A stretch of DNA of 64,000 nt from an uncultured Myxococcales bacterium (GTDB lineage Bacteria; Myxococcota_A; Polyangia; Polyangiales; Polyangiaceae), in contig CALMUT010000120.1 in NCBI GenBank assembly GCA_937872925.1, positions 1 to 64,000 on the forward strand, written 5' to 3'. Shown here piece after piece: positions 4,892 to 15,660 of the stretch. Numbering within the stretch: position 1 is the stretch's first letter; each line of letters starts with the position of its first letter. The translations under genes were made by a program, and so were the position numbers. Under the pieces are notes generated by a model, which saw nothing but the letters and a program-made list of their open reading frames with translations, was not told where the DNA came from and searched no databases.

Positions 4892-7303
4892 TCAGCCGCT
4901 CGACGGAGTCGTGCCGGAGCCTGCGCTCGGCGCTTCGGGCAGCGCAGGCAGACCTTCGGGAGCCGGGGCGGTGACTGGGAGCAAGGGCGAAGGCGTGTCG
5001 TCCGCATCGGGCTGGCCGCTGGCAACGGCGTTCCCTTTGCGAACGTAGACGACTACGTCGTCTCCGGCCTTGAGCTTCTTGTGACGAGACTTGCGATTGA
5101 TTCGCTCCATCCAGCCGGAGCTGATGCCAAAGCGGCGGCCAATGCGTGCCAATGTTTCGCCCGCTCGGGCATGCACCACCAGGCGCGTCTTGCCATTCTG
5201 CCCTTCGAAGTGTTCGATGAACTCCGGGGACCCCATGATCAGCACCTTGGTTTCATGTGCTCGGAACAGCTGCGCGCCGACGTCCGCGCCTTTTTTTACC
5301 CACGCCTGCAGCGTCATGCCCGAAAGCAAGCGCGCGGTAGGGTCGAGGGCGTTGAAGCGTTCGAGCTCCGCGCTGGAGACGCCCAAAGTGCGGGCGATCC
5401 CCGGCAAGGTATCGCCGTCCCGAACGACGAGAAACACTCGCTCGCGATCGGCGTAGCTAACTTGCACATCCGGCATGACCACCACGTCTGGTGTGCTCAC
5501 GACGCCGGCAGGGCGCGCTTTCGCCGGGACCAGCAACACGTTGCCCGCAGCAAGGGTCTCGTTCGAGCTGAGCCGGTTGATGCGTTTGAGTTGTGAGAGC
5601 GATGCGCCAGAGCTCTGCGCCACGCTTTCCGGAGTGTCGCCAAGTTTGGCCACGACGGCGCTCAGGGCTGGCTCGTCGCTTGAAAGGCGCGGCAACTGGC
5701 TGCCTGCGGTCGCGGCTTTGCCCGGGGGTACGCGAACGTAGTAGCCAGCCGCGCGCTGACCCGGGCGGTTCGGCGGCACGCGCCCAGACAACAACTGGGG
5801 GTTCAGCCGCTCCAGGCTGCTTTCGCTGACTCGCGCCGCGGTAGCGACCACTGAGAGCGGAGTGCCCGGGGGGACCAGTACAGTTTCGAAACGCTCGGCC
5901 GGATCCGCTGCGACGTCGGCGATGCCGAAGGCCTTCTTGTTGTTCATGACAATCGCGATGGCGATGATCTTCGGAACGTAGAGGGTGGTCTCCCATGGGA
6001 TCCCCGCCTCGTGTTTCGAAAGTTCCCAGTAGTCGTTGGTGTTGAACTTCTGGATCGCCCGGGACAGCCCGCCGTGTCCCATATTGTAGCCCGCCATCGC
6101 GAGTTCCCAATTGCCGAACCGCCGGTACAAATCCGACAAATAGCCGATGGCCGCACTGGTGCTGCGCAATGGATCCAAGCGCTCGTCCACCCAGCGGTCC
6201 ACGACTAAGCCGTACATGCGGCCAGTCTCCGGCATGAACTGCCACAGCCCCGCAGCGCCGGCTGGGGATCCAATGGTCGGATTGTGACCGCTCTCGATCA
6301 GACTGAGCCACACCAGATCCGTCGGGAGCCCTGCTTTGGCGAGTTCTGCTTTGAGGGCTGGTGTGAAGCGCCCGCTCTTCTTCGCCCACACCTTCGCGAT
6401 GGCCTTACCCCGAGCATTGTCACGGTAGAACTTCAAGTAGCGGATCACGCGGGATTCCAAGCGCACCGGCACATTCGGGAGCGTCAGGGACCGGATCCAC
6501 TCCGCGGTGACGACGGATTCGTCGGTGCTGGCTTTGGGGGCCAGGCGTGCGTCTGCCGGCAGGCCAGACGCGACCACTTCGGGACCGCCGCTCCGCGGCG
6601 CAACGCTTGGCCAGGCAAACACCGGTTCAAAGCCCATGAGTGGCTTTGGGAATAGAACGCGCTCGGCGTCTCGCAGCGCAGCCAGTTCCGGATCCTCCGG
6701 TTTGGCCTCAAGATCTGGAAGCGTGGGCCCGCCCGCGATCGCGCGGCGCGCAGCGGAGCTGACCTCGGGGCGCGCGGCGCCTTTCGGCAGCGTGGCGCTT
6801 GGCGTCTTCGGGCGCCTGCCCTTGCGGTGACTGGGCGCCTCGGGGGCGTCAACGACTTTGGCTTCAGTTTTCGTCTCGGGCGCGGCCTTGTCCGGCGTGG
6901 ATGCCACGGTCGGCGCGTCCGACGGTCCTTTCGGCTTGTCGCCACCGACACTGCGAGTGCCGGAGCCGGCGCCCGGCCCGATTTGGCCCGCGGCGGGCTC
7001 CCCTTCGGGTTTGCGCGCGGACTCGGCTTTGGCTTCCTCTTTCGAAGCAGAGCGCTTCGCGTCGCTGGGCGTCGCTTTTCTCGGTCGCGCCTGCTTCGAC
7101 GGCGCCTTCTTCGGCTCCGCCTTCTTCGGCTCTGCCTTCTTCGGCTCTGCTTTTTTGGGCTCCGCTTTCTTCGGCTCTGCTTTTTTGGGCTCCGCTTTCT
7201 TCGGCTCAGTCTTCTTCGAGTCGGACTGCTTCGGGGCGGCAAGGCTGGAGGCCGACGCAGCGGTGATCGCAAAAAAGCAGATCAGTGGCCGGAGCGCGCG
7301 CAT
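4892..7303 (-). CDS. mltD: LysM-containing lytic transglycosylase (MltD-like)
   Basis: An 803-residue secreted protein predicted to cleave peptidoglycan. A signal peptide (MRALRPLICFFAITAASASS-LAA) is followed by a lysine-rich low-complexity region: eight five-residue units of the KKAEP type at residues 30-69, then a long Ala/Lys/Pro linker to about residue 250. The SLT domain follows, with catalytic Glu near residue 337 in LIESGHN, then GAAGLWQFMPETG and AMAGYNMG, all standard for family-1 lytic transglycosylases. Four LysM-like segments occupy the C-terminal third (for example GDTLPGIARTLGVSSAELERF and GETLARIGRRFGISSGWMER), which would hold the enzyme on glycan. It lies 39 bp after the ATPase/TPR gene on the same strand, so may share its transcript. 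The gene symbol is by domain similarity only; MltD of enteric bacteria is shorter and lacks the Lys-rich region. Confidence 0.88.
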   Translation of the reverse strand: MRALRPLICFFAITAASASSLAAPKQSDSKKTEPKKAEPKKAEPKKAEPKKAEPKKAEPKKAEPKKAPSKQARPRKATPSDAKRSASKEEAKAESARKPEGEPAAGQIGPGAGSGTRSVGGDKPKGPSDAPTVASTPDKAAPETKTEAKVVDAPEAPSHRKGRRPKTPSATLPKGAARPEVSSAARRAIAGGPTLPDLEAKPEDPELAALRDAERVLFPKPLMGFEPVFAWPSVAPRSGGPEVVASGLPADARLAPKASTDESVVTAEWIRSLTLPNVPVRLESRVIRYLKFYRDNARGKAIAKVWAKKSGRFTPALKAELAKAGLPTDLVWLSLIESGHNPTIGSPAGAAGLWQFMPETGRMYGLVVDRWVDERLDPLRSTSAAIGYLSDLYRRFGNWELAMAGYNMGHGGLSRAIQKFNTNDYWELSKHEAGIPWETTLYVPKIIAIAIVMNNKKAFGIADVAADPAERFETVLVPPGTPLSVVATAARVSESSLERLNPQLLSGRVPPNRPGQRAAGYYVRVPPGKAATAGSQLPRLSSDEPALSAVVAKLGDTPESVAQSSGASLSQLKRINRLSSNETLAAGNVLLVPAKARPAGVVSTPDVVVMPDVQVSYADRERVFLVVRDGDTLPGIARTLGVSSAELERFNALDPTARLLSGMTLQAWVKKGADVGAQLFRAHETKVLIMGSPEFIEHFEGQNGKTRLVVHARAGETLARIGRRFGISSGWMERINRKSRHKKLKAGDDVVVYVRKGNAVASGQPDADDTPSPLLPVTAPAPEGLPALPEAPSAGSGTTPSSG
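7097..7216 (-). repeat. 15-bp tandem repeat encoding KKAEP units
   Basis: Eight contiguous 15-bp units inside the lytic transglycosylase gene encode KKTEP, six copies of KKAEP, then KKAPS. Neighbouring units are almost identical at the DNA level, alternating between two synonymous forms, so copy number could change by slippage without breaking the frame. Confidence 0.85.
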
Positions 7304-11578: not shown

Positions 11579-12454
11579 GTGGCCCACTCCGACGCAGAAA
11601 GCGCAAAGCTCGCAACCTTCGACGCTCAGCCGCAGGCGGCAAAGGCTCCGGCGCGCCAGCGCGTGCGCGTACTGGTGCTCACCGGACTGGGACTCAACTG
11701 CGAAGCTGAAACCAGTCATGCGTTCCGAACGGTGGGAGCCACACCGGTGCAAGTACACCTTTTGGATTTGCTGGAACGCCCGAAACAACTGCTCGACTAT
11801 CAAATCCTGGCATTCATCGGGGGCTTCGCCTTCGGCGACCACCTCGGCGCAGGATTCGTCTTCGCAAACAAGATCCGGTACCGGCTCTACGACCAGTTGC
11901 TGGCGTTCATCGACTCGGGAGGCTTCGCGCTGGGCGTCTGCAATGGTTTCCAAACCATGACCCGGCTTGGCATGCTGCCGGGCCTCGGCGGGGACTACAA
12001 AACCCCCCGCGCGACATTGGCACCCAACGACCGACCGGGCTACTGGGACGCCTGGGTGAAGCTGCGCTTTGACCCCGAGTCCCCGTGCCTGTGGACGCGC
12101 GGTTTGGAACGCGTGGATCTCCCGGCACGGCACGGAGAGGGCAAACTCGTTTTCGCAGACGGAGCGCAGCAAGCCGTCAATACCGCGCATCTGATCCCAG
12201 CTCGCTACGTCGACGAAGGCGGCCGCCCAACCGAAGCGTGGCCGCACAATCCCAACGGTTCCGCCGGCGGCGCCGCGGGGCTGTGCGATCCCAGCGGCCG
12301 GCTGTTTGGGCTGATGCCCCACCCGGACGCCTACATCTACCCTTTCCAACATCCTGCTTTTCAGCGGGAACTGGCGCAGGGCCGCACTCCTCCGGCGGCA
12401 GGGCTGCAGATCTTCCAGCGGGGCGTCGACGCCGCAGCGGCACTACTCGGCTGA
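11579..12454 (+). CDS. purQ: Phosphoribosylformylglycinamidine synthase, glutaminase subunit PurQ
   Basis: A 291-residue class I glutamine amidotransferase that supplies ammonia to FGAM synthase in purine synthesis (FGAR + Gln + ATP to FGAM). The start is a GTG at 11579; residues 1-28 look like a non-conserved tail, and a start near the GTG encoding V29 (VRVLVLTG) is possible. Family marks are GGFAFGDHLGAG at about 81-92, the nucleophile elbow GVCNGFQ with Cys121, and the His region LMPHPDAYIYPFQHP near the C-terminus. It is larger than the roughly 227-residue Gram-positive PurQ and matches the form that partners PurSL. Its partner subunit lies 44 kb away in this window (56544-59552), so the two are not in one operon. 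Confidence 0.92.
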   Translation: MAHSDAESAKLATFDAQPQAAKAPARQRVRVLVLTGLGLNCEAETSHAFRTVGATPVQVHLLDLLERPKQLLDYQILAFIGGFAFGDHLGAGFVFANKIRYRLYDQLLAFIDSGGFALGVCNGFQTMTRLGMLPGLGGDYKTPRATLAPNDRPGYWDAWVKLRFDPESPCLWTRGLERVDLPARHGEGKLVFADGAQQAVNTAHLIPARYVDEGGRPTEAWPHNPNGSAGGAAGLCDPSGRLFGLMPHPDAYIYPFQHPAFQRELAQGRTPPAAGLQIFQRGVDAAAALLG

Positions 12455-12625
12455 TCCAGATCCGCGCGCCTCCAGGGAAGGATCCAGGGGCGGAAACGTA
12501 GCGCCTCGTGAGAGTTCGGTTTGTTTCGGGATCTGTGGCGACCTGGACCCAGTCGCTGGCTCAGATCGAGGCACGGCTGCCGCGATTTGCCTTGGCACAC
12601 CCCGTCATTTCGAGGGGTTAGCGAC

Positions 12626-12640
12626 TGGCACGGTGGTTGC
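12626..12640 (+). promoter_or_regulatory. Sigma-54 (-24/-12) promoter upstream of sigma factor gene
   Basis: The sequence reads TGGCACG-GTGG-TTGC, matching the sigma-54 consensus TGGCACG-N4-TTGC at all eleven specified bases, with GG and GC separated by exactly ten bases. The predicted transcription start is near 12652, only about four bases before the ATG at 12656. Confidence 0.75.
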
Positions 12641-12655
12641 GAAAGGCCTCCCCCG

Positions 12656-13258
12656 ATGACACACCCCGCCTCGCCACATCCGGACGAAATCCTAGCTAGC
12701 GCCCTCGCCCGCAGCGACGCCGCCGCTTGGCGCCGCCTGGAGCGCGACCACGGCCCTAAGATCCGACGCAGTATCGCCCGGGTGATCCACCGCTTCCCGG
12801 GCCTATGCGCCTCGGACACCGTCGAAGACGTCGCCGCGGAGCTTTCGATCCGCTTGCTAAAGAATCGCGGCGCCAAGTTGACTGCGTTCCGCGTGGGTCG
12901 CGGGCTGACCCTCGAACAATGGCTCATGCGCATCGCAAAACAAGCCGCGTACGATCATGTACGTCGACTCCGTCGGCGTCGCACGGCGCCGCTCGAGTTG
13001 GATTTCGTCGTGGCCGCCGCAGACGATCCCCATGCAGACTGCCTCGCGCGCCAACGTAGCGAATTGCTGCAGTCCGCAGTGAACACGCTTCCGCACAGGG
13101 AGCGCCAACTCTACGACCTCTGCTTTCGCTCACACGAGGAGCCCGAGCGAGCAGCGGAACTGATGGGGATCCGCATCGCAACGGTCTACAGCAAGAAGCA
13201 CAAGCTCATGTCTCGCTTGTCCCGCGTGCTCTCGGACGACGCGGCGCTCGCAGCCTAG
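12656..13258 (+). CDS. Small sigma-70-family (ECF-like) RNA polymerase sigma factor
   Basis: The 200-residue product carries sigma region 2 (DTVEDVAAELSIRLL, then LEQWLMRIAKQAAYDHVRRL at about residues 55-105) and sigma region 4 (LPHRERQLYDLCF and the helix-turn-helix ERAAELMGIRIATVYSKKHKLMSRL near 150-190). The spacing and size fit the ECF-like group that lacks regions 1 and 3. I chose ATG 12656 because it follows a near-perfect sigma-54 promoter and the upstream in-frame sequence is not conserved-looking. Transcription by sigma-54 RNA polymerase would make this a cascade: an activator ATPase switches on a second sigma factor. No anti-sigma gene is adjacent. The FHA-type activator at 14287-15660 is a natural candidate for its control, which is inference. 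Confidence 0.85.
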   Translation: MTHPASPHPDEILASALARSDAAAWRRLERDHGPKIRRSIARVIHRFPGLCASDTVEDVAAELSIRLLKNRGAKLTAFRVGRGLTLEQWLMRIAKQAAYDHVRRLRRRRTAPLELDFVVAAADDPHADCLARQRSELLQSAVNTLPHRERQLYDLCFRSHEEPERAAELMGIRIATVYSKKHKLMSRLSRVLSDDAALAA

Positions 13259-13420
13259 GGCCGGCCCGGCTCGATTCCGCGTGCACGCACCGCGGGCAAC
13301 GCGAAAATGCTTCGCGCATCGCGGGAACGCGGCTACGCAGGGGTGTGCGATCTGGACACAGCGGGCCGGCGTGGCCCAAGAGCCACTGGGAAAAAGTCGA
13401 AGAGCCGGGGAACTTGGCGC

Positions 13421-13436
13421 CGGCATGCCGGTTGCA
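13421..13436 (+). promoter_or_regulatory. Probable sigma-54 promoter upstream of lipoprotein gene
   Basis: The sequence reads CGGCATG-CCGG-TTGCA: the GGCA, the G, and TTGCA match the sigma-54 consensus, with correct GG-to-GC spacing. The predicted start is near 13447, three bases before the ATG at 13450, the same geometry as the site upstream of the sigma factor gene. Confidence 0.6.
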
Positions 13437-13449
13437 GGCCTTCCCAGCC

Positions 13450-14259
13450 ATGCGAACCGCACTCTTCGTTCTTCTCGCCTTCAGTAGCTCCGGTTGCACG
13501 GTCCTGGGTCCCATGCCAATCGTGACGGGTTCCACCGGAGGCATCGAACGCCGCATGGGCGCGGAAGTTCAGGTTGCCGCCACTCCGGGCTTCTACCTGA
13601 GCAAAAGCACCTCGGAGGATCCCGAAGGCGCGCCCGCGCGGCAGCTGGCGGGCTGGCTCGACGTTGGGGAGTTGGTCAGCGCCGAGGGACTGGCCCTAGG
13701 AGGCCGCTACGTGGGCGGCGGCGACGGCGGAGGCTACGGCGAGCCGATGGTGCGCTACCGCCACGGGCTGGACCAAGACGACCGCTTCACATTGCACGCC
13801 GCGGGGTTCGGCACCCTCGCCAGCGGAACGCATCGTGGCGCGTCCTACGATGCCACCCGCGTGGGTGCGGAGTTGGCCATCAATGGCCGCATCTCCCCGG
13901 AAAGCAACTGGCTTGAGCTACACGGCTTCATCGGCGCGGCGGTCCTCGGTTTGAACGCCACAGGAACGTATTGTGTCGCGCAAGGCACTGGCATCGGCGT
14001 GGACTGCAACGAAGATGGCACGGACAGCGTCGTCTCTGGCGAAGTCAGCGGAGCATTCCCAGGCATCTTCGCGGGAGCCGGACTGGACCTAGCGCGGCAC
14101 TTGGACATTCCATTTCACGGTGCGCGTTTGGAAGGCATGGTCGCTGCGGGCACGATGCCAGAAATCCGCAACGGAGAGCGCACGGATACCAAGACGTGGA
14201 CGACGATCGGCCTGGCGCTGACGGTGCGGGCGGGCGCCAGTCAATCCAACAAGAAGTAG
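13450..14259 (+). CDS. Outer-membrane-type lipoprotein of unknown function
   Basis: Starting at ATG 13450 gives a 269-residue protein with a clean lipoprotein signal: MRTALFVLLAFSSSGC, lipid-anchored Cys16. Any earlier start would bury this signal. The mature part alternates Gly-rich and aromatic/charged segments (ALGGRYVGGGDGGGYGEPMVRYRHG, with strands such as FTLHAAGFGTL and TTIGLALTVRAG at the end) in the manner of a small beta-barrel or porin-like fold. A single Cys pair (YCVAQ and VDCNED, about residues 175-187) may form a disulfide. The gene follows the sigma factor by 191 bp and has its own probable sigma-54 promoter. I do not recognise a named family; envelope location is supported by the lipobox, the rest is inference. 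Confidence 0.78.
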   Translation: MRTALFVLLAFSSSGCTVLGPMPIVTGSTGGIERRMGAEVQVAATPGFYLSKSTSEDPEGAPARQLAGWLDVGELVSAEGLALGGRYVGGGDGGGYGEPMVRYRHGLDQDDRFTLHAAGFGTLASGTHRGASYDATRVGAELAINGRISPESNWLELHGFIGAAVLGLNATGTYCVAQGTGIGVDCNEDGTDSVVSGEVSGAFPGIFAGAGLDLARHLDIPFHGARLEGMVAAGTMPEIRNGERTDTKTWTTIGLALTVRAGASQSNKK

Positions 14260-14286: not shown

Positions 14287-15660
14287 TTAGCGCCCGGATT
14301 TCGCTTTGAGGCGCTGCAAATGCCGGCGCGCAACCCCTGCCGCAGCAGCGGCGCGGGTGACGTTGCCACCATGTTGCTCTAGCACGTGCTCGACGTAACG
14401 CGCCTCGAACTCGTCTACGAGCTTCTGCCGGGCTTCGGCCAGTGGAAGATCCGAGGCCAACACGCGAGCGATGGCGTCGTTGTCGGATGGCGCCATCGGC
14501 GCACCCATCGGTCGGGCCTGCGCGGGCGAATCTTCACTCGGCACTGAGTCCGCGAGATCCCCAAGCGCCACGCGACGCATGACCGCATTGCGCAGTTCCC
14601 GTACGTTGCCCGGCCAGGCGTAGTCCTCCCAGCGCTTCATCAACTCGGGAGGGATGGCCTCGACGTCGGCGTTCATTTGCGCACAAAAGAACGACACGAG
14701 CAGACGCAGGTCCCCCTCGCGCTCACGCAGCGGCGGGAGTTCGATGCGCGTGACGGCAATGCGGTGAAACAAGTCGTCGCGAAACCGACCGGCAGCCACT
14801 TCGTGATCTAGGTCCCGACGCGTCGCTGCCAACAGGCGCACATTGACGCGGATCGGCCGTTCGCCGCCGACGCGGGTGAGCTCCGAGCGTTCAATGGCGC
14901 GCAGCAGTTTGGGCTGCAGTTCAAGGGGCAGGTCGCCGATTTCGTCGATCAGCAGCGTCCCGCCGTCTGCGCGCTCGAAGACGCCCCGACGCGTGCCGAC
15001 GCTCCCCGTAAAGGCGCCCTTTTCGTGTCCGAATAGTTCGCTCTCGATCAGGCTCGGAGCCACCGCTGTGCAGTCGAATACCACGAACGGCCCCTTCGTT
15101 CGTGTGCCTTGCTCATGCAGCGCTTCAGCTAGCTGCTCCTTGCCGGTGCCCGTCTCTCCCTCAATGATGACGGGTACGTCCGACTTGGCCAGCCGTTCAC
15201 ACAACGGGTACAAGACACGCATCGCTGGGCTGGCACCGATCACCCGCCCGTATTGCACGCCGCCTGGCAGCTTGTGCTCGCGATACGGACCGATTTCGTC
15301 CACGCGCAGGGCCGTGCCACCCACGCGAACGATTTCTGCGCCGCGCAGGAAAGCGTCCACGACGGCTACGCCATCTACAAAGCTGCCATTCGTGGAGTCA
15401 TGATCGCGGATGCGGAGTCGACGCCCGGTGAGTTCCACGCTCGCGTGCCTTCGGGACACGCTGTGATCCGATAGGCGCGCATCGCAGGCAGGGCTCGTCC
15501 CGATCACCATGCGCAAGGTCGTGTCGCCATCGAGCACGAATTCCTTGCCGGTGTCCGGGCCCTCGATCACGACCATGCGGAACGTGCTGGCCGCGAAGGT
15601 GCGTTCGAGCTCCAACGCGACGGTGGAGCTTTGGACCGTGTCGAAGGGGGCCCGCGGCAT
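14287..15660 (-). CDS. Sigma-54-dependent activator with N-terminal FHA domain
   Basis: This 457-residue enhancer-binding protein has an FHA domain at about 28-120 (GTSPACDARLSDHSVSRRHA, then DHDSTNGSFVDG), which binds phosphothreonine and typically couples to Ser/Thr kinases. The AAA+ domain follows: Walker A GETGTGKE at 168-175, the sigma-54-contacting loop GAFTGS at 215-220, Walker B GGTLLIDE ending at Asp239-Glu240, and FRDDLFHRI. A Fis-type helix-turn-helix closes the protein (NVTRAAAAAGVARRHLQRL, about 433-452). The loop ends in Ser rather than the usual Ala. The gene faces the sigma factor and lipoprotein genes that carry sigma-54 promoters and lies downstream of the kinase-ATPase-TPR gene on the same strand, so kinase-to-activator signalling by phosphothreonine is a plausible, unproven circuit. 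Confidence 0.93.
   Translation of the reverse strand: MPRAPFDTVQSSTVALELERTFAASTFRMVVIEGPDTGKEFVLDGDTTLRMVIGTSPACDARLSDHSVSRRHASVELTGRRLRIRDHDSTNGSFVDGVAVVDAFLRGAEIVRVGGTALRVDEIGPYREHKLPGGVQYGRVIGASPAMRVLYPLCERLAKSDVPVIIEGETGTGKEQLAEALHEQGTRTKGPFVVFDCTAVAPSLIESELFGHEKGAFTGSVGTRRGVFERADGGTLLIDEIGDLPLELQPKLLRAIERSELTRVGGERPIRVNVRLLAATRRDLDHEVAAGRFRDDLFHRIAVTRIELPPLREREGDLRLLVSFFCAQMNADVEAIPPELMKRWEDYAWPGNVRELRNAVMRRVALGDLADSVPSEDSPAQARPMGAPMAPSDNDAIARVLASDLPLAEARQKLVDEFEARYVEHVLEQHGGNVTRAAAAAGVARRHLQRLKAKSGR

Follow-up and report, generated by a model that had tools for sequence, protein, structure and literature searches.

A conserved sigma-54 core promoter next to the start codon of an ECF-type sigma factor gene suggests a sigma-54 to ECF relay

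In a 64,000-nucleotide stretch of DNA from an uncultured Myxococcales bacterium (the window), an exact sigma-54 core promoter lies almost on the start codon of an ECF-type sigma factor gene. The promoter is conserved in relatives of this gene, as is the Ala-Ala C-terminus of its product. We consider it probable, at about three chances in four, that the promoter works and drives a leaderless ECF mRNA as part of a pulse-like relay. An enhancer-binding activator would trigger the sigma-54 RNA polymerase to start at about 12652. Translation would begin at the AUG on the 5' end of an mRNA almost without a leader, and the resulting ECF sigma factor would then switch on its own gene set. No recognisable anti-sigma gene lies alongside, and the amount of the sigma factor would probably be set by sigma-54-dependent synthesis and by degradation via its Ala-Leu-Ala-Ala end, which together would make the relay pulse-like. 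The evidence comes entirely from sequence. It shows the site, its conservation, the tail and the leaderless layout across the lineage; the transcription start, activation, degradation and regulon are inferred. The features discussed below are as follows.

11579-12454, + strand: PurQ-like glutamine amidotransferase gene, upstream synteny marker (GATase_5, E 2.3e-72; 73% DNA identity in the sister species)
12549-12557 and 12620-12628, no strand assigned: perfect 9-nt inverted repeat; one of its arms overlaps the -24 element
12626-12640, + strand: sigma-54 core promoter, -26 to -12 (exact consensus, conserved in the ortholog and the family)
12641-12646, + strand: GAAAGG at -11 to -6, corresponding to an AT-then-GG block conserved in promoters of the family (column counts from 30 of them)
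12652-12655, + strand: predicted transcription start and 4-nt leader CCCG (from the position of -12 and the ATG pile-up at other sites)
12656-13258, + strand: ECF-type sigma factor gene, product of 200 aa, a divergent paralog within a class-wide family (Pfam/NCBIfam, ortholog, tree)
13238-13255, + strand: C-terminal DAALAA, ssrA-like tail and candidate Clp degron (family Ala-Ala counts, tmRNA tag)
13420-13436, + strand: second sigma-54-like site, 13.7 bits in the matrix scan, its -26 base departing from consensus
14287-15660, - strand: gene for an FHA, sigma-54 activator (GAFTGS) and Fis-type HTH protein (Pfam)

The sequence TGGCACGGTGGTTGC at 12626-12640 on the forward strand contains the -24/-12 core (TGGCACG-GTGG-TTGC). 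The original prediction had claimed a match at every specified base with correct spacing, and this is borne out: 11 of 11 specified bases are exact, and the GG and GC doublets lie 10 nt apart within TGGCAC-N5-TTGC, as required of a sigma-54 site. It is the only exact consensus match in the window and the top-scoring site there, reaching 16.2 bits with an approximate matrix. The 9.39-Mb draft assembly contains 14 exact sites versus 3 for the reversed pattern; the latter count gives a chance expectation of about 0.02 exact sites per 64 kb. RpoN itself is encoded in the genome (Sigma54_DBD, E 2.9e-64).

The downstream gene has the ECF layout, with regions 2 and 4, no region 3 and a length of about 200 aa. 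Sigma70_r2 was detected by Pfam above its cut-off (E 4.7e-8), NCBIfam sigma70-ECF scored 49.8 bits (cut-off 42.9), and Sigma70_r4_2 reached 25.5 bits, just below its cut-off of 25.7. Among 59 relatives searched, one from the same genus has an ortholog at 60% and many homologs stand at 30-38%, and a search of named genomes found one distant ECF, in Devosia only. A profile search covering 140 genomes across the phylum detected family members only in the class of the window, in 14 of its 29 genomes and at no less than 174 bits; the next matches, at most 114 bits, came from other classes and carry neither the promoter nor the tail. In the tree, the window gene groups with its ortholog in a duplicate clade on a long branch within the family; inner support is modest. 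Alternative starts ahead of the ATG, TTG at 12521 among them, were rejected, because homology to the ortholog starts at the aligned ATG and the upstream frames differ apart from the promoter.

In the sister-species genome (G001), the PurQ-like gene is kept upstream of the ortholog and the intergenic DNA is no longer alignable; within it TTGGCACGGCGGTTGCG is retained, with the ATG at +6. Because this syntenic ortholog keeps the promoter in otherwise unalignable DNA, we conclude from the comparison that the match at 12626-12640 is not due to chance. A sigma-54 site of at least 11 bits was found within 200 nt upstream of 28 of the 36 homologs, and three more have slightly weaker ones; the background at this threshold is 47 sites in 515,850 positions, true sites included, or about 2% per gene. 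Two divergent in-class matches (L206 and L217) showed no clear sigma-54 site. Of the 52 sigma70_r2 genes in the genome, only three are preceded by a site scoring 13 bits or more: two family members, namely the window gene and its canonical paralog (contig 197), and an ECF gene on contig 36. The promoter thus recurs in the ortholog and in most homologs and is nearly absent from the other sigma genes of the genome, which supports the sigma-54 to ECF-type sigma cascade originally proposed.

Counting C12640 as -12, the transcription start is predicted at 12652 and the ATG (12656-12658) falls at +5, in agreement with the earlier estimate of a start about four bases before the ATG. GAAAGG would then lie upstream of the start and outside the mRNA, as had been supposed. 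To place this layout in context, ATG positions behind other sites were counted, with gene starts predicted mechanically in the genome-wide counts. In this genome and that of the sister species, 25 ATGs opening at least 60 codons were found at +1 to +8 of 59 sigma-54-like sites, some of which are chance matches (59 versus 30 for the reversed pattern); the density there is 53 per 1000 positions, versus 4-13 elsewhere. In a 1.26-Mb sample of long contigs picked irrespective of sites (L221-L280 plus the window), 16 of 77 sites have a long-ORF ATG at +1 to +6, versus 1/50, 0/74, 1/43 and 0/46 for reversed or permuted matrices. Across the class, the consensus is followed by an ATG at +1 to +6 279 times versus 77 times at +21 to +26; elsewhere in the phylum (111 genomes) the corresponding counts are 294 and 346. 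Among the class matches listed outside the family of the window gene, 52 of 78 ATGs lie at +3 or +4 (hand tally). The pile-up at +2 to +6, in the genome and in the class, argues for the leaderless transcript of the original prediction and supports the short-leader layout at sigma-54 sites as a class-level trait.

A published criterion predicts leaderless genes by a TANNNT box some 12 bp ahead of the start codon (Zheng et al. 2011, PMC3160421). The same signature occurs in this genome, where TANNNT boxes show a peak exactly at -12 relative to the start codon (the -14 to -11 bin holds 39 of 470 genes versus a background of about 8, in the 1.26-Mb sample). About 10% of genes also look leaderless by this signature, at sigma-70-type promoters. 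The peak therefore suggests that leaderless expression is a general habit of the lineage and not a peculiarity of the window gene. Unlike the sigma-70-type boxes described by Zheng et al., -24/-12 promoters abut start codons here too.

GAAAGG matches a conserved promoter block. In 30 family promoters, positions -10 to -4 read roughly C-W-A-G-G-G-G, with C at -10, A or T at -9, and G at -7 in 60% and at -6 in 76%. Since most of these promoters have start codons far downstream, GAAAGG appears to be part of the promoter, and its assignment as a Shine-Dalgarno site was rejected. Were it a ribosome site after all, the sigma-54 promoter could be real while the main transcription came from a farther-upstream sigma-70-type promoter and produced a longer mRNA. 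GAAAGG lies 9 nt before the ATG, a plausible Shine-Dalgarno distance, and leaders with ribosome sites occur in many relatives: leaders in the family are either very short (ATG at +3 to +9), mostly without a ribosome site, or 11-85 nt long with one. However, the GG at -7/-6 is also conserved where start codons lie 20-85 nt downstream, which assigns it to the promoter, and relatives with the ATG at +3 or +4 (L023, L028, L035 and L049) mostly have no GAAAGG-like sequence. The exceptions with short leaders are the window gene, L018 and L026, in which the purine run lies ahead of the predicted start. We therefore regard transcription from a distant sigma-70-type promoter as unlikely.

Canonical members of the family carry clusters of TGT(G/T)ACGC and GCGT(C/A)ACA repeats upstream of -24 (e.g. 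L193, L026, L028, L035 and L040). The core repeat occurs 49 times in 30 upstream regions, versus a mean of 1.9 and a maximum of 6 in mononucleotide shuffles, and the clusters look like activator binding sites, to which we putatively assign them. No such TGTKACGC cluster was found upstream of the window gene, its ortholog or a few other members. The search for the canonical motif at the window gene turned up only the inverted repeat CCAGTCGCT / AGCGACTGG, a candidate regulator site that could be a chance occurrence; it has no counterpart in the upstream DNA of the ortholog.

The missing enhancers would fit the view that 12626-12640 is a chance match or an unused relic and that the gene is unrelated to sigma-54, as would the number of matches with up to two mismatches in the window (39 versus 34.6 expected), which is at chance level. 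Against this, the site is exact, scores best in the window and is conserved both in the 60% ortholog, where no other intergenic DNA aligns, and in most of the family, and we hold a chance match or relic to be very improbable. Most simply, the window gene and its ortholog would be duplicates that retained the sigma-54 core and the tail and changed their activator. Polymerase with sigma-54 can remain at a promoter as a closed complex, and the site is near the start codon, but a role as a roadblock or repressor over the start region, and not as the promoter of the gene, is scarcely credible, because in long-leader family members the site lies well ahead of the start codon and is accompanied by enhancer-like repeat clusters, as fits activation.

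The nearby activator of the original prediction, encoded at 14287-15660, is not favoured as the regulator. It is no neighbour of the ortholog in the sister species and so has no special claim to this role, and it remains only a candidate. The loop motif of this protein is GAFTGS, where GAFTGA is usual.

Proteins of the family end in Ala-Ala in 27 of 29 cases, 13 of them in Leu-Ala-Ala, versus 3 of the 49 other sigma70_r2 proteins of the genome; these three include the one further sigma-54-driven ECF that was found. The tmRNA tag of the genome is ANDNAIEALAA, and the window sigma factor likewise ends in ALAA. Pfam gave no match, anti-sigma domains included, for the gene downstream of the window sigma gene or for five genes neighbouring canonical members; anti-sigma factors of unknown type may escape such a scan. 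A similar case is SigmaAntA of Streptomyces, an orphan ECF with a C-terminal Ala-Ala that is degraded by ClpXP and whose ending is present in 67 of 71 orthologs (PMC7142297). By analogy with this protein of the same ending, the ssrA-like tail of the window sigma factor probably marks it for Clp degradation. The two share the conserved Ala-Ala end and, as far as the scanned genes show, the lack of a recognisable anti-sigma partner; degradation was demonstrated for SigmaAntA and is a prediction for the window family. SigmaAntA differs in belonging to an antimycin gene cluster of Actinobacteria, and the accessible part of that report does not describe sigma-54 control.

The wiring proposed here resembles that of HrpL of Pseudomonas syringae, an ECF sigma factor transcribed by sigma-54 with HrpR/HrpS (PMC5263251). 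The likeness, an ECF sigma gene under a sigma-54 promoter, is in wiring only. The hrpL gene differs from the window gene in organism group and in having known activators and upstream sites, and neither a class-wide Ala-Ala tail nor a leaderless layout is described in the portion of that report available. A 2025 survey of sigma-54 regulons lists sigma-factor genes among the enriched classes and, in its accessible part, mentions no ECF family (PMC12316311). We found no report in the open-access literature of the ECF family of the window, or of leaderless transcripts from sigma-54 promoters in this class or in myxobacteria. Each element has precedents: sigma-54 to ECF relays, orphan ECFs degraded by Clp, and leaderless mRNAs. 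The family of the window gene would join the first two throughout a class, and its sigma-54 promoters often abut start codons.

A wider generalization is plausible but tentative, and we rate it a little below even odds. The ECF family of the class may dispense with an anti-sigma factor and be controlled only by synthesis (sigma-54 with a TGTKACGC-type activator) and destruction (the ssrA-like tail), and the class may express its sigma-54 regulon largely from leaderless mRNAs; the window gene would be a duplicate that kept promoter and tail and changed its activator. Such control would be a simple, testable design for regulating a sigma factor that has no anti-sigma partner. The peak of ATGs at +3/+4 points to a reliance of sigma-54 regulons here on leaderless translation, and it could strongly aid annotators in finding sigma-54 genes and correcting start codons in these genomes.

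Several minor observations were made at other sigma-54 sites. Outside the family, an ECF gene of the same genome (L114; G000, contig 36, site at 5539-5553) has an exact sigma-54 site upstream and ends in LRAA. Directly downstream of the window sigma gene, the second sigma-54-like site CCGGCATGCCGGTTGCA is followed at +4 by an ATG (13450) that opens a lipoprotein-like gene (13450-14259). Elsewhere in the genome, exact sites mostly precede genes with lipoprotein or pseudopilin-like N-termini (L002, L004, L005, L006, L009, L012, L013 and L015), several of which have their ATG at +2 to +6.
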